From the NCBI GenBank assembly GCA_020426345.1, contig JAGQQE010000010.1, positions 1 through 47,074 of the forward strand: a DNA stretch of 47,074 nucleotides. Direction: 5' to 3'. This stretch comes from Planctomycetaceae bacterium. GTDB lineage: Bacteria > Planctomycetota > Planctomycetia > Planctomycetales > Planctomycetaceae. Position numbers and translations under genes: made by a program. The notes below the pieces were generated by a model. It was not told where the DNA came from, did no database searches, and saw nothing but the letters and a program-made list of their open reading frames with translations. Position 1 is the first letter of the stretch, and the number at the start of each line of letters is the position of its first letter. This document shows positions 33,137 through 46,607 of the stretch, in pieces.

Positions 33137-33835
33137 CAGACGCCCGGCACAGCTATTCCACCAGCTGCACTGCCCGAAATGACCTGGGCGTCGTGTTTGT
33201 GTCCATGATGCGCGACAACGAAATGCCAGACCGTTTACTGATCCAGCAGCATGGCTGTGAGATCGTTCTTGCCTCCTCCGTGCGCGAAAGCCTTGTGATA
33301 TGCCGCCAGTGACGTCGGGTTCACGGGCCGAGATCCGGATCGGATCATTCCGGAATACCTGGATTCAAACCTGCGGCACAAAGGCCATGACTGCGTGATC
33401 GTCTCTTGTTCATCGGCGTTTCGGTGATTTGGCTGAGTCATGTGTTTGAATGGGTCGGATTTTTCCCCGCCGGGCATGTTCCCCGTCTGATCTTCATGGT
33501 GAACACTGGAAGCATCTGCTCTCGTTGCCCATGCTGAGAACACTAGAGATCCCGGAATCCCGCTGGAAATTCCTGAAATCTGTTCCAGGGCTTTTCGGGT
33601 GACAAACCTCTCAAAAACCGCGGCAAAGGAGAATGGCCCGGAAGTTTTTTCATGAGTTTTTGTTTACTTTGGCTGAGGTGTCGTTGTCGGAATGGCCTGA
33701 AACCCGCGATATACGGGAGTCTTGAGCTCAATAGAGTGTTTTGAAAATCTTTTGGAAAATGGCGGCATTTCGTGGCGGGCTTTCAATGAGGAAGTGACTC
33801 ATGAATCCGGCTGCTGTTGATTTTACGAGGCTTTC
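33137..33835. other. Upstream region of the sigma-kinase cassette
   Basis: These 699 bases hold no convincing gene; a 102-codon minus-strand frame (33235-33543) has no recognisable domain. The right end has an AT-richer block (33735-33765) and a 13-codon leader frame before the sigma-factor start, and it must contain the cassette promoter. Confidence 0.45.
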
Positions 33836-33842
33836 ATGCTGA
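33801..33842 (+). CDS. Possible 13-residue leader peptide of the sigma-factor gene
   Basis: ATG at 33801 opens a 13-codon frame (MNPAAVDFTRLSC) whose TGA overlaps the start region of the sigma gene. An AGGAAG ribosome-site candidate lies about six bases before it. Such an arrangement could couple or tune sigma translation. It is short enough to be chance; the evidence is position only. Confidence 0.3.
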   Translation: MNPAAVDFTRLSC

Positions 33843-34438
33843 GGACTTTGTCAGACCAGTCGCTGCTTCAACGACTCCGCACGGGTAGCGAAGATGCCGC
33901 AACTGAGTTATACGGGCGTTATGCCAAGCGTCTTGATTGCATTGCATCAAGGGGTCTGGGCAGCGACATGCGCTCAGTTGTCGGCAGTGAGGATGTTGTT
34001 CAATCGATTTTCAGGACGTTTTTTCGAAGGGCGGCGGCAGGAGATTATGACGTCCCGGAAGGCTCTGAGCTCTGGAATCTCCTGGTCACAATCTCACTCA
34101 ATAAGATTCGCGCGATCGGGCTGCATTATCGCCGACAGAAGCGCAGTGTTGCTCGAACAAAACACGGAGACTCCGCTACAGACGACATGGCGGTTGGCGA
34201 TGACGTTGCCTGTCAGGTCCTGCGGATGGTGATTGATGAGCTGATCGAGTCATTGCCGGAATCTCATCAGCGCATCATACATTTGCATATTGACAATTGG
34301 GGAGTTTCCGAGATCGCTTCGAAAACTCAACGATCGAAACGAACGGTCGAACGTGTTCTGCAGCAATTCCGAACGCAGTTGAAAGAGCTGATTTGCGACG
34401 ACGTGAATGACAAATCCGAACTCCACGAAGATGCTTAA
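33836..34438 (+). CDS. ECF-family RNA polymerase sigma factor
   Basis: A 200-residue ECF sigma factor of the kind found in planctomycetes. Region 2 is near residues 20-90 (ELYGRYAKRLDCIAS, then SEDVVQSIFRTFFRRA and LWNLLVTISLNKIR). Region 4, a helix-turn-helix, is near 140-190 (LPESHQRIIHLHIDNWGVSEIASKTQRSKRTVERVLQQF). GAGG stands five bases before the ATG. Its last 32 bases overlap the Ser/Thr kinase gene, which is strong evidence that the two act together. Kinase-linked ECF factors are thought to be activated by phosphorylation, since no anti-sigma gene is present here. Likely targets are its own operon and perhaps the adhesin gene at 39.9 kb; that is inference. Confidence 0.92.
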   Translation: MLRTLSDQSLLQRLRTGSEDAATELYGRYAKRLDCIASRGLGSDMRSVVGSEDVVQSIFRTFFRRAAAGDYDVPEGSELWNLLVTISLNKIRAIGLHYRRQKRSVARTKHGDSATDDMAVGDDVACQVLRMVIDELIESLPESHQRIIHLHIDNWGVSEIASKTQRSKRTVERVLQQFRTQLKELICDDVNDKSELHEDA

Positions 34439-37403
34439 TCTCACAGATTGCGTTGAGGCTTACGAGCAGTCGATCGCCAACGGTTTTGACTGCGCGATTG
34501 AATTGTTTGCTCCGCACGAATCTCATCCGGAATATGCCGAGATTGTGACTGAGCTTGTCCGGGTGGAGATGGAGCATCGTGGCTGGCAGCCACGTTCAAA
34601 TATTGCAGGATATTGTAAACGCTTTCCAGTTGCCTTCGACAATCCTGTTCATCGAGCGATCATAGCGTTTGAAGAGTTTCGTGTTCGGCGCCAGCATGGA
34701 GAACCTGTTACTCGACATGCCTATGCCGACGAGTTTCAGATTGATACGACACAGTGGCCGTCAATCGCCTCGAATCCTGATATCGACCTGCTGGCCGACG
34801 CCGGCTCATCGGGTCATCGAGGGCGTCTTGTGCCTTCGGTGACGGAGATGGATGAAACACATCTGCTGCAATGTATTGCAGAAGCATTTCCTGAATTTGA
34901 ACCTCTCGAAGAATTAGGGAGAGGTGCGTTCGGCCGCGTCTTTCTCGCTCGTCAGCGAAATCTGGCAGACCGTCTGGTGGTGATTAAAATCACTTCCGAC
35001 ACAACGACGGAACCAGAGCGACTGGCTCGCCTGCAACATACGAACATCGTGCCTGTCTATTCAGTGCATCGTACAGCTGACTGGCAGGCAATTTGTATGC
35101 CGTTTTTTGGCAGGCGAACGCTGCGCGACCATCCTGTGGCCGATATCCAGTCATCGCTGCGGCTTATGGAACAAGTCGCCATCGGCCTGCAACATGCTCA
35201 CCGCTGCGGCATTCTGCATCGTGACGTCAAGCCTGCCAATATTCTGGTGACGGACAATGGCCAGCCGATGCTGCTCGATTTCAATTTGTCTTCAGACAGT
35301 GCGTCACGGTCAATGACGCGTTCTATCGTCGGTGGCACGATTCCTTATCTTTCACCCGAGCAACTGCAGTCTTTGAGGTCCGGCGAATCGGTGAGTGCGA
35401 CCGCCGACATCTATTCGATTGGGGTGATTCTTTTTGAATTGCTCGCTGGCCGTCTGCCGTTCGAACTCCCGAAGGCAGCCTCGATTCCGGAGTTAATTCA
35501 GCACGCCCAGGAGCGAGAATCCGGTGAAATCCCACACATCCGAAGCATCAATCCTCGTGTGTCGTTCGCTGTTCAGGACATTGTCCTGAAATGCCTGCAG
35601 CCCGAATCAGCGGACCGGTATCAATCGGCTGCAGACCTTGCTGCGGATCTGCGGCGGGAGCTGGACCGCCTGCCGTTGAAACATGCTCCTAATTCATCGA
35701 TTGCAGAACGCATCGCAAAATGGAGACATCGTCATCCGCGACTCTTGTCTGTCACGACACTGGCAGCCGCACTCCTGGCAATGGTCATCATTGCAGGCAT
35801 GGGATCCTATGCGTCTCAGCGGCGAATGCTGGCATTGCACGCAGAATCGCAATGGAAGGAATTCCAGCTGTCGGCGCCTGAAATTCGTACGCTCCTTTCG
35901 GCACCCGATGCTTCGCTTCCGGCTCTGACGGAAGGAATTAGCAGCGCAAAGAACCTGGTGAACCAGTATCACGTTGCAGATTCAGCAGACTGGCATCATA
36001 GGCATGAAGTTCAGCTGATCGAGCACCCGCAGCGTCAACTTCTGGATGAAGAGTTGTCGGAAATAGTGTTCCTGATGGCGTACGGTCTTCAGCGGCAGTC
36101 GCGATTTTGCACAAACGAAATGCATCAATCCCAGTTGTTGAACGAGGCACTGCAATGGAACTCTCTGGCATCGCAGTTTGATTGCGCCGCAGACTCGGGC
36201 GAAGTCTGGCTGAGTCAGCGATCTGCCATTCAGCAAACGCTCAATTCCCTTTCCTCTCATGCCGCACCGCAGGTTGATTTGCAATTTCGAGCCCGACCGA
36301 TTGCCGATGGGCCAGGTCAGCTGTCAGGCTTTTCAAATGCCATTCGCTTGCTGGAAGCGGGCGATTCTCCAGCAGCCCACGTTCTTCTGTCAGAACTTGT
36401 CCAACGCAACCCGCATGACTATTCGGTGTGGTACCTGCTGGGAAAATCACGACAGGCAATGCGTCTTTACGGGGACGCGGATGCGGCGTTTTCCACCTGC
36501 ATCGCACTGAACGCGGATTGTTGGGTCGCATGGCAGGATCGCGCAGTTGTTCGATTGGAATTGCAACGATTCGAAGACGCTGCTGCCGACTGTACAAACG
36601 CCATTCATTTGAGGCCCAGTGCGCCAAGTGGATATCTCAACCGTGCACTGGCCAACGCCGCTTTAAAGGAATTTCAGATGGCGGAAGCGGACCTGAACAT
36701 GGCAATTCAGTCTGGCGGTCCATCGCGGGCGTTCTTTCTGCGTGCCGACGTTCGCCAGCAACAGGGCAATCAGGCAGGTGCGCAGTCAGACTACGACGCG
36801 GGTTTAAAAGCGGTTCCGAACGACGTGGATAGCTGGGTCACTCGAGGAATGGCCTATTTGCCACAGGACCCGGTGAAAGCTCTGGCAGATTTTGAACAGG
36901 CACTTCGCCTCGATCCGAAATCTCGCGATGCGTTGCAGAATTCCGCCCATGTATTGGCGGAGAGACTTGGCAAACGTGAAGAGGCAATTCGATTTCTTGA
37001 TACTCTCCTGACATTCTGTCCCGATGACAATCCGGCGCGGATAGGTCGCGCAGTGCTGTACGCCCGCGCGGGCGAAGACGCGTTAGCGCGTCGCGACGCC
37101 GACGATGTTCTGCAGCAGTCGCCGGATGCGATTACTCGCTATCAGGTCGCCTGTGTCTTTGCGCTGACGTCGCCGAGAAGCATGGAAGATACAGAACGTG
37201 CGATGCGGCATCTTTCAGAGGCGATGCGAGCGTCACCCGAACTGCATTCCATGGCGGAGCAGGATTCTGATCTGAACCCGCTACGAAACCTGCCGGCATT
37301 TCAGGAACTGCTGAATGCATGTCGGAAACTTATGACACTCGGAACAGATGTTCCCTCGGCAAGTAAGCAGCCGATTGCGGTCAATCAATCTAACGGAGAT
37401 TAG
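34407..37403 (+). CDS. Ser/Thr protein kinase with membrane helix and TPR repeats
   Basis: A 998-residue signalling protein. After a 160-residue N-terminal domain seen in planctomycete kinases, the kinase domain (about 165-440) has the Gly loop GRGAFGRVF, Lys194 in VVIK, HRDVKPANIL with Asp273 and the APE-like SPEQL. The DFG motif reads DFN (291-293), and the region around helix C is short (TTEPERLARLQHTNIV). A membrane helix near 455-475 is followed by about 500 residues on the outer side with tetratricopeptide-like pairs of helices (for example WYLLGKSRQAMRLYGDADAAF). The start overlaps the sigma gene by 32 bases, or by 8 if the ATG at 34431 is used. It probably controls that sigma factor. 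Activity despite DFN is plausible, since the metal-binding Asp is kept. Confidence 0.9.
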   Translation: MTNPNSTKMLNLTDCVEAYEQSIANGFDCAIELFAPHESHPEYAEIVTELVRVEMEHRGWQPRSNIAGYCKRFPVAFDNPVHRAIIAFEEFRVRRQHGEPVTRHAYADEFQIDTTQWPSIASNPDIDLLADAGSSGHRGRLVPSVTEMDETHLLQCIAEAFPEFEPLEELGRGAFGRVFLARQRNLADRLVVIKITSDTTTEPERLARLQHTNIVPVYSVHRTADWQAICMPFFGRRTLRDHPVADIQSSLRLMEQVAIGLQHAHRCGILHRDVKPANILVTDNGQPMLLDFNLSSDSASRSMTRSIVGGTIPYLSPEQLQSLRSGESVSATADIYSIGVILFELLAGRLPFELPKAASIPELIQHAQERESGEIPHIRSINPRVSFAVQDIVLKCLQPESADRYQSAADLAADLRRELDRLPLKHAPNSSIAERIAKWRHRHPRLLSVTTLAAALLAMVIIAGMGSYASQRRMLALHAESQWKEFQLSAPEIRTLLSAPDASLPALTEGISSAKNLVNQYHVADSADWHHRHEVQLIEHPQRQLLDEELSEIVFLMAYGLQRQSRFCTNEMHQSQLLNEALQWNSLASQFDCAADSGEVWLSQRSAIQQTLNSLSSHAAPQVDLQFRARPIADGPGQLSGFSNAIRLLEAGDSPAAHVLLSELVQRNPHDYSVWYLLGKSRQAMRLYGDADAAFSTCIALNADCWVAWQDRAVVRLELQRFEDAAADCTNAIHLRPSAPSGYLNRALANAALKEFQMAEADLNMAIQSGGPSRAFFLRADVRQQQGNQAGAQSDYDAGLKAVPNDVDSWVTRGMAYLPQDPVKALADFEQALRLDPKSRDALQNSAHVLAERLGKREEAIRFLDTLLTFCPDDNPARIGRAVLYARAGEDALARRDADDVLQQSPDAITRYQVACVFALTSPRSMEDTERAMRHLSEAMRASPELHSMAEQDSDLNPLRNLPAFQELLNACRKLMTLGTDVPSASKQPIAVNQSNGD

Positions 37404-37407
37404 AACC
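37390..37407 (+). promoter_or_regulatory. Shine-Dalgarno of the matrixin gene inside the kinase stop region
   Basis: GGAG at 37395-37398, nine bases before the ATG, overlaps the last codons of the kinase. It decides the start at 37408 over an upstream in-frame codon at 37348. Confidence 0.6.
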
Positions 37408-39060
37408 ATGGCGCTATTCCAAATCCTGAATCTGCTGAATGTGACTCGAAAGTCCCCGAACGCGCGCCGCCGCTTTCGCTCTCAGAAAGAGGCGGAAATC
37501 CTTGAGGTTCGCAGTCTGCTGACGACTTTCGCATGGTCGAACGCAACAAGCCTGACAATCAGCTTTGCACCCGACGGAACAGATATTGCCGGCACGCCAA
37601 GTGGGTTGAATTCTCAACTGGATCAGTTGGGAACACCAGCGGAATGGCAGGGCACAATCGTCCATGGTTTCCAGACATGGCTTAATGAATTGGGCTTCGA
37701 TCTTTCGGTGGTGAGCGACACCGGCGCAGACTTTGGAATCAACGGAGCCACGCGGGGGGATGCACGATTTGGTGATGTACGCGTTGGAGCCGTGCCGTTG
37801 AGCCCTGAGACACTTGCCACGGCAATTCCACAGAACGCATTCATCTCCGGAACGTGGGCCGGGGATATGATGCTGAATTCCAACCTGCAGTTAAATTCGC
37901 TGGATGAACTGTATGCACTGTCGCTGCATGAAGCAGGCCATATTCTGGGACTGGAACACAGTTCCGATCCGGCCTCTCCCATGTTTGATCACGCCGGCAC
38001 AGTCGTTCTTCAGCCAACCGCGCAGGACATTGCAGTTTTGAAGAGTCTCTATTCGCAGGGAGGCGGAAAACAGCGAACGTCGGAGGACGAGAGTTCATCC
38101 GATGACGATTCAGAACGCACACGACGAATCGTGCCAGTGGATTCCACGGGGATGTTTCCGCATTTTGAAGTTACAGGCGTGATCGGCGACGCGGGTCAGA
38201 TTGACACATTTGTCTTCAGCCCGGGCGCTGTGTCAAGAGAAGACCCACGAATCACAACAATCGTCCTGCAAACAACCTCCACCGATTTCATTCCTGACCT
38301 GACGCTGTCAACGGCCAGCGGTCGGAAGGTTGAATCGACAATTGTGGCGAATGGAAACGGGCTGATTATTCTGCAGTCGCGTGAACTTGAAGCTGAGAAA
38401 GATTATGTCGTTAAGGTTCGATCCGCTTTCACCGATTCGCGCTTGTCACAGGGACGTTATGAGCTTGCAGTGACGTTTTCCGAATCTGCCCAGGTCATGG
38501 ACACCCTGGCCAGAGGTACCCTGGATCGTGAAAAGACGCACAGGTCGTTCGAATTCGCTGTCGGCAAGACAGAGCTGTATAATTTTCTGCTCGTTACAAA
38601 AGGGAATGACTCAAAGACGAAACCAGTTGACGCTGCGGTCGTACTGTCAGTCGTCGATGAGGCGGGGCGCGTTGTCTTCCGCGCTGTTGCTTTGCCCGGA
38701 CAATCAGCTTCTAACAACACGGTCATGCTTCGCGAAGGAACGTATCAACTGATGGTCGATGTTGTTGCTGCCTCACGGCGATCGACTCCAGAAGTTGAAT
38801 TCGCCGTTCGCGGGAGTGTACTTTCGACGGATGCCGGGCCGTTGCCGAGAAATCCTGTCGGCAATCCTTTGAACACTTCCCTTGTCACGCTGCCCTATAC
38901 GCCGGAGGTCCTGACAACGACAGTCTCAACAACTGTGAAGAATCCAGTTGTGACGACCCCTTCAACAAAGCCTAAGCGGCCGCCCCTTCTGTATGTCCCG
39001 GTTACGTGGCAGCAGCTTTTGCTTGACTATCCATCACTTGGTGGTCGTGGATTTCGCTGA
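37408..39060 (+). CDS. Exported matrixin-type zinc metalloprotease, LE-x-R-x-LL protein
   Basis: A 550-residue metalloprotease. It opens with a basic segment and EILEVRSLLT (30-39), the N-terminal LEPR-XLL-type motif of many planctomycete surface proteins. The catalytic domain (about 40-215) has the metzincin zinc site HEAGHILGLEH (His174, Glu175, His178, His184) and the Met-turn Met192 in SPMF, as in matrixins (M10). The rest is beta-rich: two regions resembling pre-peptidase C-terminal (PPC) domains (about 250-350 and 365-470), then a Thr/Pro-rich tail. It begins 4 bases after the kinase stop with its own ribosome site, so it is in the sigma-kinase operon. Its target may be the giant surface protein encoded next, but no direct evidence shows this. 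Confidence 0.88.
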   Translation: MALFQILNLLNVTRKSPNARRRFRSQKEAEILEVRSLLTTFAWSNATSLTISFAPDGTDIAGTPSGLNSQLDQLGTPAEWQGTIVHGFQTWLNELGFDLSVVSDTGADFGINGATRGDARFGDVRVGAVPLSPETLATAIPQNAFISGTWAGDMMLNSNLQLNSLDELYALSLHEAGHILGLEHSSDPASPMFDHAGTVVLQPTAQDIAVLKSLYSQGGGKQRTSEDESSSDDDSERTRRIVPVDSTGMFPHFEVTGVIGDAGQIDTFVFSPGAVSREDPRITTIVLQTTSTDFIPDLTLSTASGRKVESTIVANGNGLIILQSRELEAEKDYVVKVRSAFTDSRLSQGRYELAVTFSESAQVMDTLARGTLDREKTHRSFEFAVGKTELYNFLLVTKGNDSKTKPVDAAVVLSVVDEAGRVVFRAVALPGQSASNNTVMLREGTYQLMVDVVAASRRSTPEVEFAVRGSVLSTDAGPLPRNPVGNPLNTSLVTLPYTPEVLTTTVSTTVKNPVVTTPSTKPKRPPLLYVPVTWQQLLLDYPSLGGRGFR

Positions 39061-39880
39061 TTGAGCATTCAGTAACAATGTTCTTCTGCGGACCATGCCG
39101 GACAAGTGGCCAGCTGCTGCTGTGTGTGTGTGGCAGACGATCATGCGACGCTGGAATCTCCTGGTTCGCGTAACCTTGAAGCACTCAGGAGATTCGCAAA
39201 GCGGCATACAATTCAGGCGATCGCCAATCGTCTGTTTCGGAGCATTCAGACTGTCGAGCTTTTTTGTTCGCGGCACATGATAGTGTTATTTCTGGGGAAA
39301 CGCGCGAAGTTGTCGCCGTTTCCTCTGGAGCAGTGCGCCCGGGGAGCAGCGATGGCTGCAGTCTGAATAGAGGCAGCCGCATGTGTGTCGCATGCTGACG
39401 AAGAATTGTGCAACTATTCTTTCGCAAAACTCCATTGTTCTTGTTCTGTGCTTCGTTCCATTCCGAACCACGAAGAAGCCACGCTGGATGGCGAAACATC
39501 AGCCGGACGATGCTGCAATTATTTATGGCCATCATCTGGAATGCGGAGTTTTTTCAGAAAGCTTTGGCGGAGTTTCGATGTGGAAGTCACTTAATCCGTT
39601 AGCCGAAGCTGCATTGCTGCCCGCCGATATTTGTTTGACGAAAACGGCCCGTCTGTCAGACACAGATCATCTGCCGGGATTTCCCGGACACTCTGAAATT
39701 CGCCACGCAAATACTCTCCGGTATTCAAGTGATACCAGATCACTTGTGCTGGAGACGTTCGGCGAGACGGAAGTCCGTGCTGCGATCTGATCATTAAACC
39801 CCAGGGCAATTCAGGCAATTTGTCTGTTGGTAATTCGTTGTCGTCACGCTGCAGCGATCCCACTCGTAAGGAAATTCATC
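39061..39880. other. Intergenic region before the giant surface protein
   Basis: An 820-base gap follows the protease gene. Frames of 60-135 codons exist on both strands (for example 39383-39790 plus) but show no domain, signal or ribosome site. I saw no terminator with a good T-tract after the protease gene, so readthrough is possible. The giant gene has AAGGAA eight bases before its ATG. Confidence 0.45.
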
Positions 39881-42800
39881 ATGGTTTCATTCCTCCGCCA
39901 ACTTCGCCGCGTTGCCAGACTCTCCAGAGCTCGCCGGCGTCCCCGAAGGCAGTGTTCACAAAAAAATCAAATGGGATGTGAGTCGCTTGAAACTCGAGCC
40001 CTGTTGTCGGCAATCACCGGAACAATCTACGAAGATGTCGATTCCAGTGGTACCAAAACTGGTCCGGACAACACTCTGGGCGGCTGGCAGGTTTATGTGG
40101 ATCTGGATAACAGCGGAACGCTCAATAGCCGAGCTGATGGAACACCTGAGCCATCTGTATTTGCAAATTCAGGCGGCGACTACACCATCAATATGAATGG
40201 TTTTCCGACCGGTACTTACCGCGTCGCTGAGATTGTTCAGCCTGGATGGAGCCCAACGGCGGCAACCTCCCGTGATGTCGCATTTACGAGTAGCCAGGAT
40301 TCCAACAAGGTCGACTTCTTCAATTTTGCTGGCGGCGACATCGTCGGTACGGTCTGGAACGACCTTAACGCTGACGGCATAAGAGCTGTTGATCCGATCA
40401 CTGGAGAATTCACCGATCCGGGGCTGGAGGGATGGACGGTGTTCATCGACATGAAGCCCGCTGGTGGTGGCGGCTTGAATGGCATTCCTGATCCAGGTGA
40501 ACCGACCACAACGACTGACGCATCTGGTCAGTATCACTTTTCGAACCTGCCCGCCGGTGACTATGAAGTGACTGAAGTTCAGCCCGCAGGCTGGGATGTT
40601 CCCTCAGGGAGATGGGACACAAAGCAGACAGTTGCTGTCAATGCCTTGACCACTGCGACGCAGGACTACGCGAATTTTTCGTTGATCAATGGCTCGATCA
40701 GCGGTTCCGTCTGGAATGACCTCAACATTGACGGTGTGCGGGAAACAGATCCCATCACCGGAGATTTTACGGAGCCGGGTCTGGCCGACTGGACGATCTT
40801 TCTGGACACCAACAATAACGGTGTCTTAGATCCGACAGAAACGTCTACGGTCACTGATACAGATGGAAACTATTCATTCATCAGTCTGGCTGCCGGTGAT
40901 TACGAAGTGACCGAAGTCATACCGGCGGGCTGGGATGTTTCGCCGACTTATGACAGTCGCCAAACGGTCGCTGTGCGCGGCGGACGGAATTCAACGGCGA
41001 ACGATTTCGCGAACTTCACTGTCGAAAATGGTTCTATTCGTGGTACTGTCTGGAACGATCTGTTTCGAGATGGTATTCGCAACAGCGATATCTCCGGAGC
41101 CTTCACGGATCCGGGCCTGGCAGGCTGGACCGTTTATCTGGATATGAATCGCAATGGAGCCTTTGACAGTACAGAGCCCACTGCGATAACCGATGTTGAT
41201 GGCCACTATCTGTTTCCAGGCTTGCAGGTTGGTGAATACGAAGTTATCGAAATTGTTCCAACAGGCTGGGAAACCGCTCCGACGTTCGGCGACAATTACT
41301 CCGTGCGAGTTTACTCGGGTGCAGAGTCTGTCGCCCACGACTTTGCAAACTTCAATCTGTCAACGCTGATTCCGGGCACAGTCAGCGGTACGGTCTGGAA
41401 TGACGTTAACGCAAACGGCATCATCGACAGCACTCCATCGGCCGAACCTGGACTTGGCGGACGCATCGTGTTTGCGGATCTGAATTCCAACGGGATTCCT
41501 GACGCTTCAGAACCTCAAACCACCACAAACCCTGATGGAACATACACGATTTCAGGCGTGGCGCCGGGAACGGTGAATATCGTGGATGTCCTTCCGGCCG
41601 GATGGAGAGCAACATCGCCGGTCACGAGCGTTCGTTCGCTGGTTCTGAAGAACGGCGAGAACAAGACCGGGATCAATTACGGAACTGCGGAGCTGAAGAA
41701 TTCTACCATCAGCGGAGCAGTCTTTGCTGACACAAACAAGAACGGTATTCGCGACGCGGGCGAACACGGACTGGCCGGCATCACTGTTTATCTTGACATG
41801 AACAACAGCGGGACGCTGGACGCTGGCGATCTTCAGACGACAACTTCGGCCGATCTCTACTACACGCCATCCATTAACGAAGCTGGCAGCTACAGTTTTG
41901 ACCATCTGGCTTCCGGCACCTACTCTGTCCGTCAGATTATTCCAGTGGAACTCAGCGCCACACCAACAACGCAGTTTGAACATTCGGTCACAATGGTTGC
42001 TTCCGAAAATCACTCGGGAGTTGATTTTGCCGACGTCTTTCGGCTGAACGAAATCCATGGTGTAAAATTCGACGATGCCAACGGTAACCACGTGCGTGAT
42101 GCGGACGAGGTAACCGTCGCGGGCACCACGATCTTCATTGATTCCAATCGAAACAATGTGCTTGACGCCGACGAAATGAGCACCATTACAGGCAGCGATG
42201 GTTCGTATTCATTCACAGGTCTGGCGCCGGGGGCCTACGTTGTTCGAGAAGTCGTCGAATCAGGATTTGGGATAACATTCCCAACAACCTCCGGAGGGAC
42301 TTTGTGGCCAGCCGGAGTCAGTAATCCTGCTGTCGGCAATGTCTCACCGACAAGCATTACAACGTCGCTCATTGTTGGACAATCCTATAATCAGACCGTG
42401 AGTTTGACCCTGCCTGATACTGGTGCGCTGACGAACGCTGTTGACGTCTTTCTGCTGTTTGACGATACCGGTAGCTTTACGAACAATAGCCCGATCGTAC
42501 GAGCCGCGTTTCCAGACATCATTACTCAGTTGCAGACATCACTTTCAGGAACGGACCTCGCATTCGGTGTTGGGCGATTCGAGGAATACGGCAACTTCGC
42601 GTCTGAATACGGTACTGGCCGACCATTCGTATTGAATCAGCCGATCGTTGCGGCCAGCACACCCGGCTATCTGACCGCAATTCAAGCGGCATTAAATCGA
42701 ACAACACCGGGATACGGCGGCGACGGTCCGGAGACCGATATTGAAGCGTTGTACCAATTGGTAACGGGCATCGGATTTGACGGAAACAACAACGGGTCCG

Positions 42801-45800
42801 TGATGGACAGCGGTGCCGCGGGGCTTGGGGCAACTCAATTGCTTCCTGGTAACAGCGGCGACGTGCCTTCCTTCGTTTCTTTCACGGCGGATGCATCGTC
42901 CAACGTCCTGCCAGCAGCTGGTACCGTCGGAGGCGGTGGTTTCCGAGCCGGCGCTTTGCCCGTGATTCTGCTGGCGACCGACACAGGTTTTGCCTATCAG
43001 CCGAAGGGCGAAACGACGATCACAGGGGCAAACGGTTTGACTCTTCCCGTGAGTGATCTCACCGGAACATCACGTGGGACCACCCCGTTCAGTTCCGGCG
43101 CAGGACTCCAGGAGACAATTACCGGGTTGAATGCGCTCGGTGCCCTGGTGATTGGGCTTGGCACCAACACGCAGAGCAACGTTGATCCGCGACAGGGACT
43201 GGAAGCGATTTCAAAGCTGACCGGCGCGATCAATCGTTCGACGACACCCATTGATAATGGCACTGGAACTCCAATTGCTCCCGGCGATCCGTTGTACTTC
43301 CAGATCTCAACCGGCTTTGCGGGCAGTGTTGCTGCGGGCGTACAAAACGCCATACAAAATGCGGTGACAAATGTGGCGATGGACATCACAGTTCAGGCGT
43401 CGGATCCTCGCGTTCATATTATCAACCACACAGGAACCCGCACGAGTGTTGGTTCCGGACAGACCGCATCGTTTGATATCGAATTCGTTGGCGATGGCAT
43501 TCCGCATCGTTTTGATCTGCAGTTTGTACGTGAAGGAACGAACGTTGTTCTTGGCTCGATCCCGGTTGTACTTGGGACTCCGATTCCTGGCGATGGGTAT
43601 CACTTCAATGATCTTGGCGAAGGCGAAATTGAACTGGAGGATCACTTTGGTGACCATGCATCGGGGGCATCAACAGCCAATGTGGCTCCGAGTTTCGTAG
43701 CCGGAAGCAACCAGGTTGCACCAGAAGACGCGGGAATACAAACTGTCATGCCGTGGGCAACGGGAATATCTCCAGGTCCTGCCAGCGAAGCATCACAAAC
43801 CGTCAACTTCGTGGTGGTCTCAAACGACAATACCGGGCTGTTCAGTGTTCAGCCAGCGATTTCGGCTGATGGCGTCCTGACGTTTACTTCGGCACCCGAT
43901 GCATTCGGGACAGCAACACTGTCCGTGGTTCTGCACGATAATGGCGGCACCGCGAATGGCGGGACAGACACCAGTGCTCCGCAACAATTCACGATTCATA
44001 TCACGGCAGTGAATGATACTCCGGCTGTCGTCGATGATTTCTATTCATCTCCGAGCGGAGATATCGTCATTGTTGCGGCGCCTGGCGTGCTGGCAAACGA
44101 CAGCGACGTTGACGGTGACCTGCTCAGTGTTACCCCCGTCACATCGCCAGTTCATGGCTCACTGACATTAAGTACCAGCGGTAGTTTTTCATATATTCCG
44201 GACGCTGGTTTCAGCGGCACCGACAGCTTCACCTACGTGGCTAATGATGGCACCGTCGATTCAGCCGTGGCGACAGTGACAATCGCTGTCACGGCTGCCA
44301 ATAGTGCTCCGACTGCGGCTGGTGATCACTATGCAACAAATGAAGACGTTGTGCTGATCATTGATCTGCCCGGTGTCCTCGGGAATGATACCGACATCGA
44401 CGGAGATCCGCTGACAGCAAGAGTTGTGACCGATCCGTCTCACGGATCGTTGACGCTCAACCCGGATGGCAGCTTCATTTACACTTCTGTCCCGAATTTC
44501 AACGGAATCGACAGCTTCACCTACACCGCTAATGATGGGACTGTGGATTCTGCTGCAGCGACTGTGACAATCACAGTGGCTCCGGTGAATGATCTTCCTG
44601 TTGCAATACCAGACGATTACAACACTTCAGAAGATGTGCCACTGAATATCACACTTCCCGGCATACTTAGCAACGATCTGGATGCAGACGGTGATCCGCT
44701 AACGGCGAGGCTCATTTCGGTCCCAGCCCACGGCACTTTGACAGTGAACCCGGATGGCAGCTTTAACTACGTTCCGGACCTGAATTTCAACGGAAGTGAC
44801 AGTTTTACTTATGTCGCGAACGATGGAGTAGTTGATTCAGAGGCGGCCAAAGTTACCATCAGAGTCGCTGCAGTCAACGATGCACCAGTCGCCACCCCAG
44901 ATCGCTATTCGATCAGCGAAGACAACACACTAACCGTGGTCATCCCGGGCGTGCTGAATAATGACACCGACATTGACGGTGATGCCCTGACGGGAAGACT
45001 TGTTGCTGGCCCAACTCATGGAACGCTGTTGCTGGACTCAAACGGCCACTTCACCTACACACCGGCCTTGAACTACAACGGCACCGATACATTCACGTAC
45101 GTCGCGAATGACGGATCGCTGGATTCAGCGCCAACGACTGTCACGATCACCGTGACTGCAGTGAATGATGCACCGCTTGCCATTGGCGAGGACTTTGCCG
45201 TGGATGCTGGAACGGTACTGAATATTACACTACCCGGTATTTTGGCGAACGACAGTGATGTTGACGGAGATGGACTCACAGCAGTCCTCGTGGCTGGGCC
45301 GTCGAATGGTTCACTCATACTGAACGCCGACGGTTCGCTGAGCTACACGCCTGCAACAGGCTTCAGTGGCACCGACAGTTTTACCTACGTTGCAAATGAC
45401 GGCTCGCTGAATTCCGACACCGCCACTGTCACATTGACTGTGAATCCCATTCTGCCTCCGCCAACGGGTGATATGCACTTCCTTGTGGTCGATACGTCCA
45501 GTCGTCGTACATTCGAATACGACGAGGCTGGCGGTGTGCTGAATCATTCTCGGCTCAACAACGAAGACCAGAAACCCCGGGGGATTGCGACCAACAGCAA
45601 CGGTACTCTCCGCTGGGTGATCGACGAAAAAGGCGAAGTGTTTGTCTACAACGACAGCAATGTCCTTCTTGGTTCATGGGAATTTGAAGGCGTAGACAAA
45701 GCTCAGGGCATCGCGATCAATGGCAACGATCTGTGGGTTGTTGACAGCAGCAATGATCGAGCGTACCTGTTCTCAGGAGCCGCTTCACGTCGTTCCGGCA

Positions 45801-46462
45801 GTGCCCGTCCGGACTTCAGTTTTGCATTGAGCAACTCCAACAGAAATGCAAAAGACCTGGTGACTGATGGGGAGCATATCTGGATCGTCAACGACACGGC
45901 TTCGGTCGATCGAGTGTTCCGATACTCGATGGCAGGTACGCCTGATGGAAGCTGGGTGATTGATTCGGCGAATACTCAGCCGACAGGCATTGCTCTGTCG
46001 CCGGACGGTACGGGGACGCTCTGGATCGTTGATTCCCTGAGCGACCGTGTTTATGGATACGATGGCGGCACAACCCGATTCTCAGGCAATCTTTCTGCCA
46101 CGCATCAGTTTGCTCTGAATTCACTCGACAGAAACGCTCAGGGCATCGCAATCGTCGTTCCGCCAGTGTCTACCGGGCTCGCCTCACCCGCAAGCGTTTT
46201 GACACCCATCGCAAAAGCGACGGCATCATCACTCTTTGATGATCCTGCTGAGATGTCCATGACGATTGCGACATCCGATTCCCCATCGACGCGGACAACG
46301 ACCGCCAGGATCGCCACCGTAAGAATCGAAGTGCAGAGCCACGATGATGACACGTTCGTCAAATCAGAGCGCGAAGTGTCGGGGGAACGTCCGGATCTGG
46401 AAGACTCACTTCTGGACGAGGCTTTCGGAACGGACGACTTGTTTCTGCTTCTGGGCAGCTAA
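39881..46462 (+). CDS. Giant repeat-rich surface adhesin (SdrD B-like, VWA-like, cadherin-like)
   Basis: A 2193-residue exported protein. The basic start and ESLETRALLSA (34-44) form the LEPR-XLL-type signal region. Seven SdrD B-like/Cna-B-like domains begin near residues 45, 153, 271, 385, 501, 609 and 724, each with the pattern G-T-V-W-N-D-x-N-x-D-G and Asp-rich loops that should bind Ca2+. A region at about 850-1165 resembles an integrin-beta/VWA fold with a changed metal site DDTGS (861-865). After a linker and one Ig-like unit come five cadherin-like repeats (about 1380-1859), each exactly 96 residues (288 bp). The last 310 residues contain a propeller-like repeat (WVVDSSNDRAYLF, WIVDSLSDRVYGY). 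No sortase signal or dockerin is seen. ATG at 39881 follows AAGGAA; a strong terminator follows. It probably acts in adhesion. Confidence 0.9.
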   Translation: MVSFLRQLRRVARLSRARRRPRRQCSQKNQMGCESLETRALLSAITGTIYEDVDSSGTKTGPDNTLGGWQVYVDLDNSGTLNSRADGTPEPSVFANSGGDYTINMNGFPTGTYRVAEIVQPGWSPTAATSRDVAFTSSQDSNKVDFFNFAGGDIVGTVWNDLNADGIRAVDPITGEFTDPGLEGWTVFIDMKPAGGGGLNGIPDPGEPTTTTDASGQYHFSNLPAGDYEVTEVQPAGWDVPSGRWDTKQTVAVNALTTATQDYANFSLINGSISGSVWNDLNIDGVRETDPITGDFTEPGLADWTIFLDTNNNGVLDPTETSTVTDTDGNYSFISLAAGDYEVTEVIPAGWDVSPTYDSRQTVAVRGGRNSTANDFANFTVENGSIRGTVWNDLFRDGIRNSDISGAFTDPGLAGWTVYLDMNRNGAFDSTEPTAITDVDGHYLFPGLQVGEYEVIEIVPTGWETAPTFGDNYSVRVYSGAESVAHDFANFNLSTLIPGTVSGTVWNDVNANGIIDSTPSAEPGLGGRIVFADLNSNGIPDASEPQTTTNPDGTYTISGVAPGTVNIVDVLPAGWRATSPVTSVRSLVLKNGENKTGINYGTAELKNSTISGAVFADTNKNGIRDAGEHGLAGITVYLDMNNSGTLDAGDLQTTTSADLYYTPSINEAGSYSFDHLASGTYSVRQIIPVELSATPTTQFEHSVTMVASENHSGVDFADVFRLNEIHGVKFDDANGNHVRDADEVTVAGTTIFIDSNRNNVLDADEMSTITGSDGSYSFTGLAPGAYVVREVVESGFGITFPTTSGGTLWPAGVSNPAVGNVSPTSITTSLIVGQSYNQTVSLTLPDTGALTNAVDVFLLFDDTGSFTNNSPIVRAAFPDIITQLQTSLSGTDLAFGVGRFEEYGNFASEYGTGRPFVLNQPIVAASTPGYLTAIQAALNRTTPGYGGDGPETDIEALYQLVTGIGFDGNNNGSVMDSGAAGLGATQLLPGNSGDVPSFVSFTADASSNVLPAAGTVGGGGFRAGALPVILLATDTGFAYQPKGETTITGANGLTLPVSDLTGTSRGTTPFSSGAGLQETITGLNALGALVIGLGTNTQSNVDPRQGLEAISKLTGAINRSTTPIDNGTGTPIAPGDPLYFQISTGFAGSVAAGVQNAIQNAVTNVAMDITVQASDPRVHIINHTGTRTSVGSGQTASFDIEFVGDGIPHRFDLQFVREGTNVVLGSIPVVLGTPIPGDGYHFNDLGEGEIELEDHFGDHASGASTANVAPSFVAGSNQVAPEDAGIQTVMPWATGISPGPASEASQTVNFVVVSNDNTGLFSVQPAISADGVLTFTSAPDAFGTATLSVVLHDNGGTANGGTDTSAPQQFTIHITAVNDTPAVVDDFYSSPSGDIVIVAAPGVLANDSDVDGDLLSVTPVTSPVHGSLTLSTSGSFSYIPDAGFSGTDSFTYVANDGTVDSAVATVTIAVTAANSAPTAAGDHYATNEDVVLIIDLPGVLGNDTDIDGDPLTARVVTDPSHGSLTLNPDGSFIYTSVPNFNGIDSFTYTANDGTVDSAAATVTITVAPVNDLPVAIPDDYNTSEDVPLNITLPGILSNDLDADGDPLTARLISVPAHGTLTVNPDGSFNYVPDLNFNGSDSFTYVANDGVVDSEAAKVTIRVAAVNDAPVATPDRYSISEDNTLTVVIPGVLNNDTDIDGDALTGRLVAGPTHGTLLLDSNGHFTYTPALNYNGTDTFTYVANDGSLDSAPTTVTITVTAVNDAPLAIGEDFAVDAGTVLNITLPGILANDSDVDGDGLTAVLVAGPSNGSLILNADGSLSYTPATGFSGTDSFTYVANDGSLNSDTATVTLTVNPILPPPTGDMHFLVVDTSSRRTFEYDEAGGVLNHSRLNNEDQKPRGIATNSNGTLRWVIDEKGEVFVYNDSNVLLGSWEFEGVDKAQGIAINGNDLWVVDSSNDRAYLFSGAASRRSGSARPDFSFALSNSNRNAKDLVTDGEHIWIVNDTASVDRVFRYSMAGTPDGSWVIDSANTQPTGIALSPDGTGTLWIVDSLSDRVYGYDGGTTRFSGNLSATHQFALNSLDRNAQGIAIVVPPVSTGLASPASVLTPIAKATASSLFDDPAEMSMTIATSDSPSTRTTTARIATVRIEVQSHDDDTFVKSEREVSGERPDLEDSLLDEAFGTDDLFLLLGS
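44018..45457 (+). repeat. Five tandem 288-bp units coding for cadherin-like domains
   Basis: Units start at 44018, 44306, 44594, 44882 and 45170, each exactly 288 bases (96 codons). Each encodes a form of APVA-x-x-D-x-Y, then GVLANDSDVDGD, GSLTLNPDGSF-Y-P, F-G-DSFTYVANDG and TVTITVTAVND. The reading frame and length are kept although the bases have diverged. Confidence 0.9.
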
Positions 46463-46489: not shown

Positions 46490-46521
46490 AAACTCAGGTC
46501 AATCCTTGACCTGAGTTTTTT
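46490..46521 (+). terminator. Strong rho-independent terminator of the adhesin gene
   Basis: A perfect 12-bp stem (AACTCAGGTCAA with TTGACCTGAGTT, 46491-46502 and 46506-46517) has a TCC loop and is followed by a T-tract (four T after the stem, six in a row overall). It lies 28 bases after the adhesin stop. Confidence 0.93.
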
Positions 46522-46607
46522 CGTCGTGGAACAGAAATTTTTGCGGTCGATACGATCAAAGCCAGCGGGAGGTGAACATCCCTGGGAGTTGGAAAATCAC
46601 CGGGAAA

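Follow-up and report, generated by a model that had tools for sequence, protein, structure and literature searches.

Genes at the end of the window

The DNA analysed here, 47,074 nucleotides in length and referred to as the window, is contig C11 of the 6.8-Mb draft genome of a planctomycete (G000). Analysis of open reading frames and Pfam matches revealed four co-directional genes on the forward strand at the window end: an ECF sigma factor (33836..34438, 200 aa), a Hanks-type Ser/Thr kinase (34407..37403, 998 aa), a secreted matrixin-like metalloprotease (37408..39060, 550 aa) and a giant surface protein predicted to be an adhesin (39881..46462, 2193 aa). The close packing claimed in a preliminary description of this DNA was borne out by the ORF coordinates: the sigma factor and kinase genes overlap by 32 bases, or by 8 bases should the kinase start at in-frame ATG 34431, the kinase stop lies 4 bases ahead of the protease ATG at 37408, and the next gene encodes the 2193-residue surface protein. 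The gap between the protease and adhesin genes measures 820 bp, and a strong intrinsic terminator (z = -5.3) lies 3' of the adhesin gene on the same strand (46490..46522). No RNA family was matched in Rfam. ORFs and Pfam matches of the cassette neighbours included no anti-sigma-like gene, in agreement with the absence reported earlier.

The sigma factor consists of regions 2 and 4 only and matches Sigma70_ECF (3e-11) together with PF07638 and PF08281. Its sigma2.2 region reads GSEDVVQSIFRTFF, the acidic stretch being GSED in the window protein and DPED, DAED or DSED in relatives; in the ECF subfamily VQS comes after GSED or DPED, its Ser occupying a position that is Glu in other ECFs. This Ser was rejected as a mark of kinase-linked ECFs, since it is also present in ECFs with no visible kinase within 1.5 kb. 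The exchange of sigma2.2 acids for uncharged residues and a phospho-Thr that marks group ECF43 was not found in the window sigma factor; unlike ECF43 members, which are devoid of these acids, its family retains most of them (DPED/GSED), with Ser for the E of DxxDxxQE. Judged by its sequence, the window ECF is of the planctomycete kind that retains most sigma2.2 acids, and for this reason the published charge-restoring switch is not simply transferable to it. Groups other than ECF43 retain the DAED acids and, according to reviews, may work differently (PMC8999054).

The kinase comprises an N-terminal domain, a kinase domain (residues 165-406; Pkinase, 2e-37), a single transmembrane helix (35742..35798, forward strand; residues 446-464) and an ectodomain matching TPR profiles, a kind of periplasmic part already known from other kinases (PMC11032199). 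The HRD motif is present and DFN replaces DFG. Among the readable kinases related to that of the window (L068-L118), DFN stands for the canonical DFG in 30 of 32.

The protease matches Peptidase_M10 (5e-7; PF00413 at 30 bits against a cut-off of 24) and carries an intact zinc site, HEAGHILGLEH, of the form HExxHxxGxxH (37927..37959, forward strand); the zinc site with the Met-turn, HEAGHILGLEHSSDPASPMF, is that of an M10 matrixin. In the AlphaFold model the export motif is followed by an MMP-type catalytic domain, whose near folds are MMP-12, MMP-13 and karilysin (TM by target 0.66-0.76), and by two C-terminal beta-sandwich domains, for which the collagen-binding tandem of ColG was the best fold match. 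The window protease thus has HExxHxxGxxH, Met-turn and catalytic-domain fold in common with the M10 MMPs, and differs from them in its LExRxLL signal, its two C-terminal beta-sandwiches, the co-encoded kinase and the lack of a cysteine-switch propeptide, there being no cysteine among its 550 residues. The cysteine switch is typical of animal MMPs and is absent from many bacterial M10 proteins too, and its absence here bears on membership of the animal MMP subfamily, not of M10 as a whole.

The giant surface protein is composed of six SdrD_B and five Cadherin/Big_9 matches (E down to 1e-99 in Pfam), the latter as cadherin-like/tandem-95 repeats, a vWA/integrin-betaI-like domain and an NHL-like C-terminus. 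The vWA-like domain (42416..43465, forward strand) carries a MIDAS-type DDTGS and is 65-86% identical to close relatives over about 350 aa. Its nearest folds are integrin beta headpieces and the SpaC pilus adhesin (Foldseek E 1e-5, TM about 0.4, from a moderate model with pLDDT 66); no credible match emerged when PDB sequences were searched with a profile of this domain, and matches came from the fold search alone. SdrD_B repeats, vWA fold and MIDAS-type DxTxS are shared with SdrD/SpaC adhesins and integrin beta I domains, whereas the window protein has no LPXTG anchor, bears the planctomycete export signal and resembles these folds at a TM of only about 0.4. Its repeats and MIDAS-bearing vWA domain are consistent with a large vWA/SdrD adhesin, as which it is predicted here.

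The start motif LE-x-R-x-LL ascribed earlier to both exported proteins was confirmed, each showing an N-terminal basic stretch and then the motif: LEVRSLL in the protease (37501..37521, forward strand), with E33 and R35 invariant in 24 M10 relatives, and LETRALL in the adhesin (39986..40006, forward strand). Exported surface proteins of planctomycetes with LExRxLL (PF07595) were reportedly described by Studholme in 2004. No match of the cassette proteins to PF07595 was reported at E 0.01, and the NF012209 (LEPR family) profile gave zero matches in the own genome, a result that is uninformative because the controls likewise gave none. In the Tuwongella immobilis proteome, LExRxLL proteins combine an N-terminal basic stretch with the motif and include giant repeat proteins (PMC8567305), features which the cassette protease and its giant repeat neighbour share. 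No report tying LExRxLL proteins to a linked sigma-kinase pair or to a common promoter was found in the literature read.

Linkage of the genes in relatives

A set of 119 relatives was searched separately with the sigma factor and with the protease, and the neighbourhoods were then read. The ECF subfamily comprised 26 loci, two of which stop at a contig edge, leaving 24 readable ones. An M10 gene adjoins the sigma-kinase pair in 16 of these 24; four further loci have a DUF1559 pseudopilin in its place, with a giant LExRxLL protein next in three of the four. Since genomes of about 7 Mb hold 1 to 7 M10 matches each, the chance expectation is well below one M10 neighbour among 24 loci. By sequence comparison, the ECF sigma factor, the TPR-kinase and the LExRxLL matrixin are a conserved triad linked far above chance, and the pattern recurs in named GTDB genomes (L108, L109, L112, L114, L116, L117). 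In the M10 tree the kinase-linked members stand against a 17-member free-standing clade (support 100/99). The M10 gene lies away from the sigma-kinase pair in G001 and G002; the sigma factor and M10 trees still group the same genomes, and the M10 genes that moved away each carry their own promoter motif. No flanking genes are common to the cassettes.

Several related arrangements were encountered. The own genome contains a second, rearranged cassette (L083, G000:C776:1930-8548), with M10, ECF (45% identical) and kinase genes on one strand. In a sister cassette the DUF1559 pseudopilin replaces the protease, often with a giant LExRxLL protein following (L069, L071, L072, L076, L275). FG-GAP (integrin-alpha-like) LExRxLL giants adjoin sigma-kinase-M10 or kinase-M10 genes at L075 (13671-16688), L123 (3438-7673) and L272 (2-3190), and the promoter motif described below is present at those of L075 and L123.

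The kinase is the steadier partner of the protease, compared with the adhesin, as judged from the gene neighbourhoods. M10 genes stand directly beside the kinase even where no ECF gene adjoins them (L095, L096, L098, L103, L104, L111), with M10-kinase spacing of -44 to +50 bp in many loci. Moreover, about one third of the wider kinase-linked M10 proteins are without the third zinc ligand or another catalytic residue (L070, L073, L075, L078, L079, L090, L092, L098, L101, L111 and L118 among them), which in sequence suggests pseudoproteases, as expected of a binding module. This steadiness and this degeneracy make it a serious alternative to adhesin processing that the M10 protein serves the kinase as an extracellular partner: kinase and M10 would be the core pair, the M10 protein would act upstream by binding or cleaving the TPR ectodomain or its ligand, and sigma factor and adhesin would be one possible output. 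However, the zinc site of the window protease is intact, and M10 genes outside the operon carry, by the core matrix described below, an ECF-type promoter motif, as target genes do (L093, L094, L097, L108). The two roles of the M10 protein can coexist, and we regard the core-pair arrangement as a possibility of limited likelihood.

The adhesin follows the cassette more loosely. All four genes were found together in three other genomes, and the check for conserved gene order in relatives, proposed earlier, was positive: the triad recurs in 16 of 24 loci, and the complete set is present in unchanged order in L267 and rearranged in L268 and L108. L267, from another genus, has the order and strand of the window, with identities of 62% for the sigma factor, 46% for the kinase, 42% for M10 and 56% for the adhesin; its sigma factor is the closest to that of the window among readable loci, the sole nearer one (G003) being on a contig that breaks off within the kinase gene. 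In L268, from a third genus, the adhesin gene is divergent from sigma-kinase-M10, in L108 (a Pirellulaceae MAG) it separates kinase and M10 and runs on the opposite strand, and a fifth genome (L069) has the order ECF-kinase-pseudopilin-adhesin. The adhesin thus adjoins the cassette in five genomes and four arrangements, the window and L267 sharing one; the first survey had placed it next to a sigma-kinase pair in G033 only, and L267 and L268 came from a later family-wide search. Enrichment of LExRxLL giants near cassettes was not significant; the background was itself biased, as it contained loci chosen for their adhesins.

Most adhesin homologues have no ECF-kinase pair nearby, those that are linked do not form a clade, and the nearest relatives of the window adhesin by sequence (L173 and L281) have no adjoining ECF gene. 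The closest of them, L281 (G187:C26; 87-89% identity in the vWA domain), is unlinked, yet the motif is well matched 333 bp upstream of it, although its genome (G187) yielded no close ECF. As read from these sequences, the adhesin is a looser member of the cassette and not clade-faithful, and the expectation that protease and adhesin both stay with the sigma-kinase pair stood for the protease and only loosely for the adhesin. Such a distribution would also be produced if the adhesin were a passenger merely adjoining a sigma-kinase-protease unit. We consider this improbable in view of its place beside the cassette in five genomes and in different arrangements, of the higher motif scores upstream of linked than of unlinked adhesins, and of the promoter which the window adhesin and sigma factor genes share.

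A promoter motif upstream of both units

A TGGCGG box with an ACT box 15 bp further on is common to the regions upstream of the ECF genes. The shared promoter motif sought upstream of 33836 and 39881 was found in the window as TGGCGG-N15-GTGACT at 33773..33799, 36 bp before the sigma factor ATG, and TGGCGG-N15-GTCACT at 39565..39591, 289 bp before the adhesin ATG, both on the forward strand. The two 27-mers are identical at 22 of 27 bases and are the best match between both upstream regions, a value reached in none of 300 shuffles. The exact pattern TGGCGG-N15-KYSACT has two matches in the 47-kb window with both strands scanned, one per unit (33773 and 39565). The second box was made degenerate after inspection of the sites, and the match counts in window and genome are therefore optimistic; for the same reason more weight was given to a core-column matrix, which was trained on ECF promoters of other genomes, always excluding the locus under test and the window. 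This matrix took the place of a full-width one in which the spacer was overfitted and unrelated positions of the window came out on top.

With the core matrix, the linked adhesins of L108, L069 and the window ranked as the top three of 13 upstream regions. When L267, L268 and six unlinked adhesins, fetched later, were added, linked upstream regions outscored those of unlinked adhesins (p = 0.0009). Taken by itself and with the window excluded from training, the window adhesin site gave p of about 0.03, and that of L267 gave 0.09 against a small null. Several top 'background' matches of the matrix proved to be cassette neighbours, including the FG-GAP giants of L075 and L123. The motif is present at about half of the subfamily's ECF genes, and about half are without a good one.

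The exact pattern did not yield a genome-wide regulon: the draft genome holds 13 exact matches against 12 for the reversed control, and the pattern is accordingly not enriched overall. Three of the 13 lie outside ORFs of at least 150 aa, including both window copies; the third (L195, G000:C283:3090-3116) precedes the gene for a rhomboid-like membrane protein by 258 bp. The want of genome-wide enrichment, along with the many exact matches of a close pattern in relatives that look like coding sequence, would fit a motif that is the site of another regulator or a coincidence, with the genes expressed constitutively. Nevertheless, the two-box layout with its 15-bp spacer, the recurrence of the motif in unrelated contexts at about half of the subfamily ECF genes, at separated M10 genes and at linked adhesins, and its near-absence from other intergenic DNA of the own genome speak against this explanation, which we hold to be unlikely.

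A putative surface-expression circuit

That the four genes are a real unit is supported by what is read from the sequences, namely the conserved linkage, the tight co-directional packing of the sigma-kinase-protease genes, the common promoter motif and the common export signal. Because the genes are kept together in distant relatives and one promoter signal is found, a self-contained surface-expression circuit is probable. We propose, with a probability of roughly 0.7 and by analogy with known kinase-activated systems, a circuit conserved in Planctomycetia in which a kinase-activated sigma factor drives its own sigma-kinase-protease operon plus the adhesin. The TPR ectodomain of the membrane kinase would sense something outside the cell, and the kinase would activate the co-encoded ECF sigma factor, probably by phosphorylation as in EcfP/PknT and EcfK/PknS. 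Sequence comparison points to TGGCGG-N15-(T/G)(C/T)(G/C)ACT as the site recognised by the sigma factor, which would amplify its own operon by autoregulation and switch on the adhesin from the second promoter copy. Protease and adhesin would leave the cell by means of the planctomycete LExRxLL export signal, and the most likely task of the matrixin would be to remodel the cell surface or the surroundings of kinase and adhesin. Sensor, switch, promoter sequence and outputs of this proposed circuit are all contained within 13 kb. The self-contained surface programme suggested in the preliminary description is thereby upheld in part, as a real unit with the protease in the sigma-kinase operon and an ECF-type motif of the adhesin's own; processing of the adhesin by the protease, which had been suggested as well, is so far unsupported.

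Kinase-activated ECFs have been described as EcfP/PknT of Vibrio parahaemolyticus and EcfK/PknS of Xanthomonas citri, in group ECF43 (PMC13147305, PMC8999054), and Ser/Thr-kinase-linked ECF groups of planctomycetes comprise ECF59, ECF61, ECF62 and ECF217 (PMC8999054, PMC13147305). The window resembles the kinase-linked ECFs in the position of the ECF gene beside a membrane Hanks kinase, in the absence of an anti-sigma gene and in the proposed phospho-regulation (PMC8999054, PMC13147305). The outputs differ, being polymyxin resistance or a type VI system for EcfP/PknT and EcfK/PknS, and a secreted matrixin and an adhesin for the predicted circuit of the window. Searches of the open literature, the neighbourhood tables of the large ECF re-classification aside, turned up neither a sigma-kinase-matrixin-adhesin unit nor a TGGCGG-N15-ACT promoter. 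Kinase-linked ECFs, the LExRxLL signal and TPR-bearing kinases are thus known elements, and the putative four-gene regulon they form here was not found described.

A broader, phylum-specific adhesion circuit is also conceivable, and we put it forward as a speculative reading of rather low probability. A receptor-like kinase and an M10-derived, often catalytically degenerate extracellular partner would together control the ECF sigma factor, which in turn would switch on interchangeable giant LExRxLL adhesins from one promoter type, these being SdrD/integrin-betaI-like in some lineages and FG-GAP/integrin-alpha-like in others. If true, this would give bacteria an equivalent of signalled adhesion under the control of a matrixin.

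Planctomycetes are rich in ECF sigma factors, kinases and giant surface proteins, the wiring of which is almost wholly uncharted. The proposed kinase-activated surface-expression circuit is testable in a cultured relative, since it is conserved across genera, and through it the kinase-linked ECF groups that retain the sigma2.2 acids gain a predicted promoter and predicted targets.
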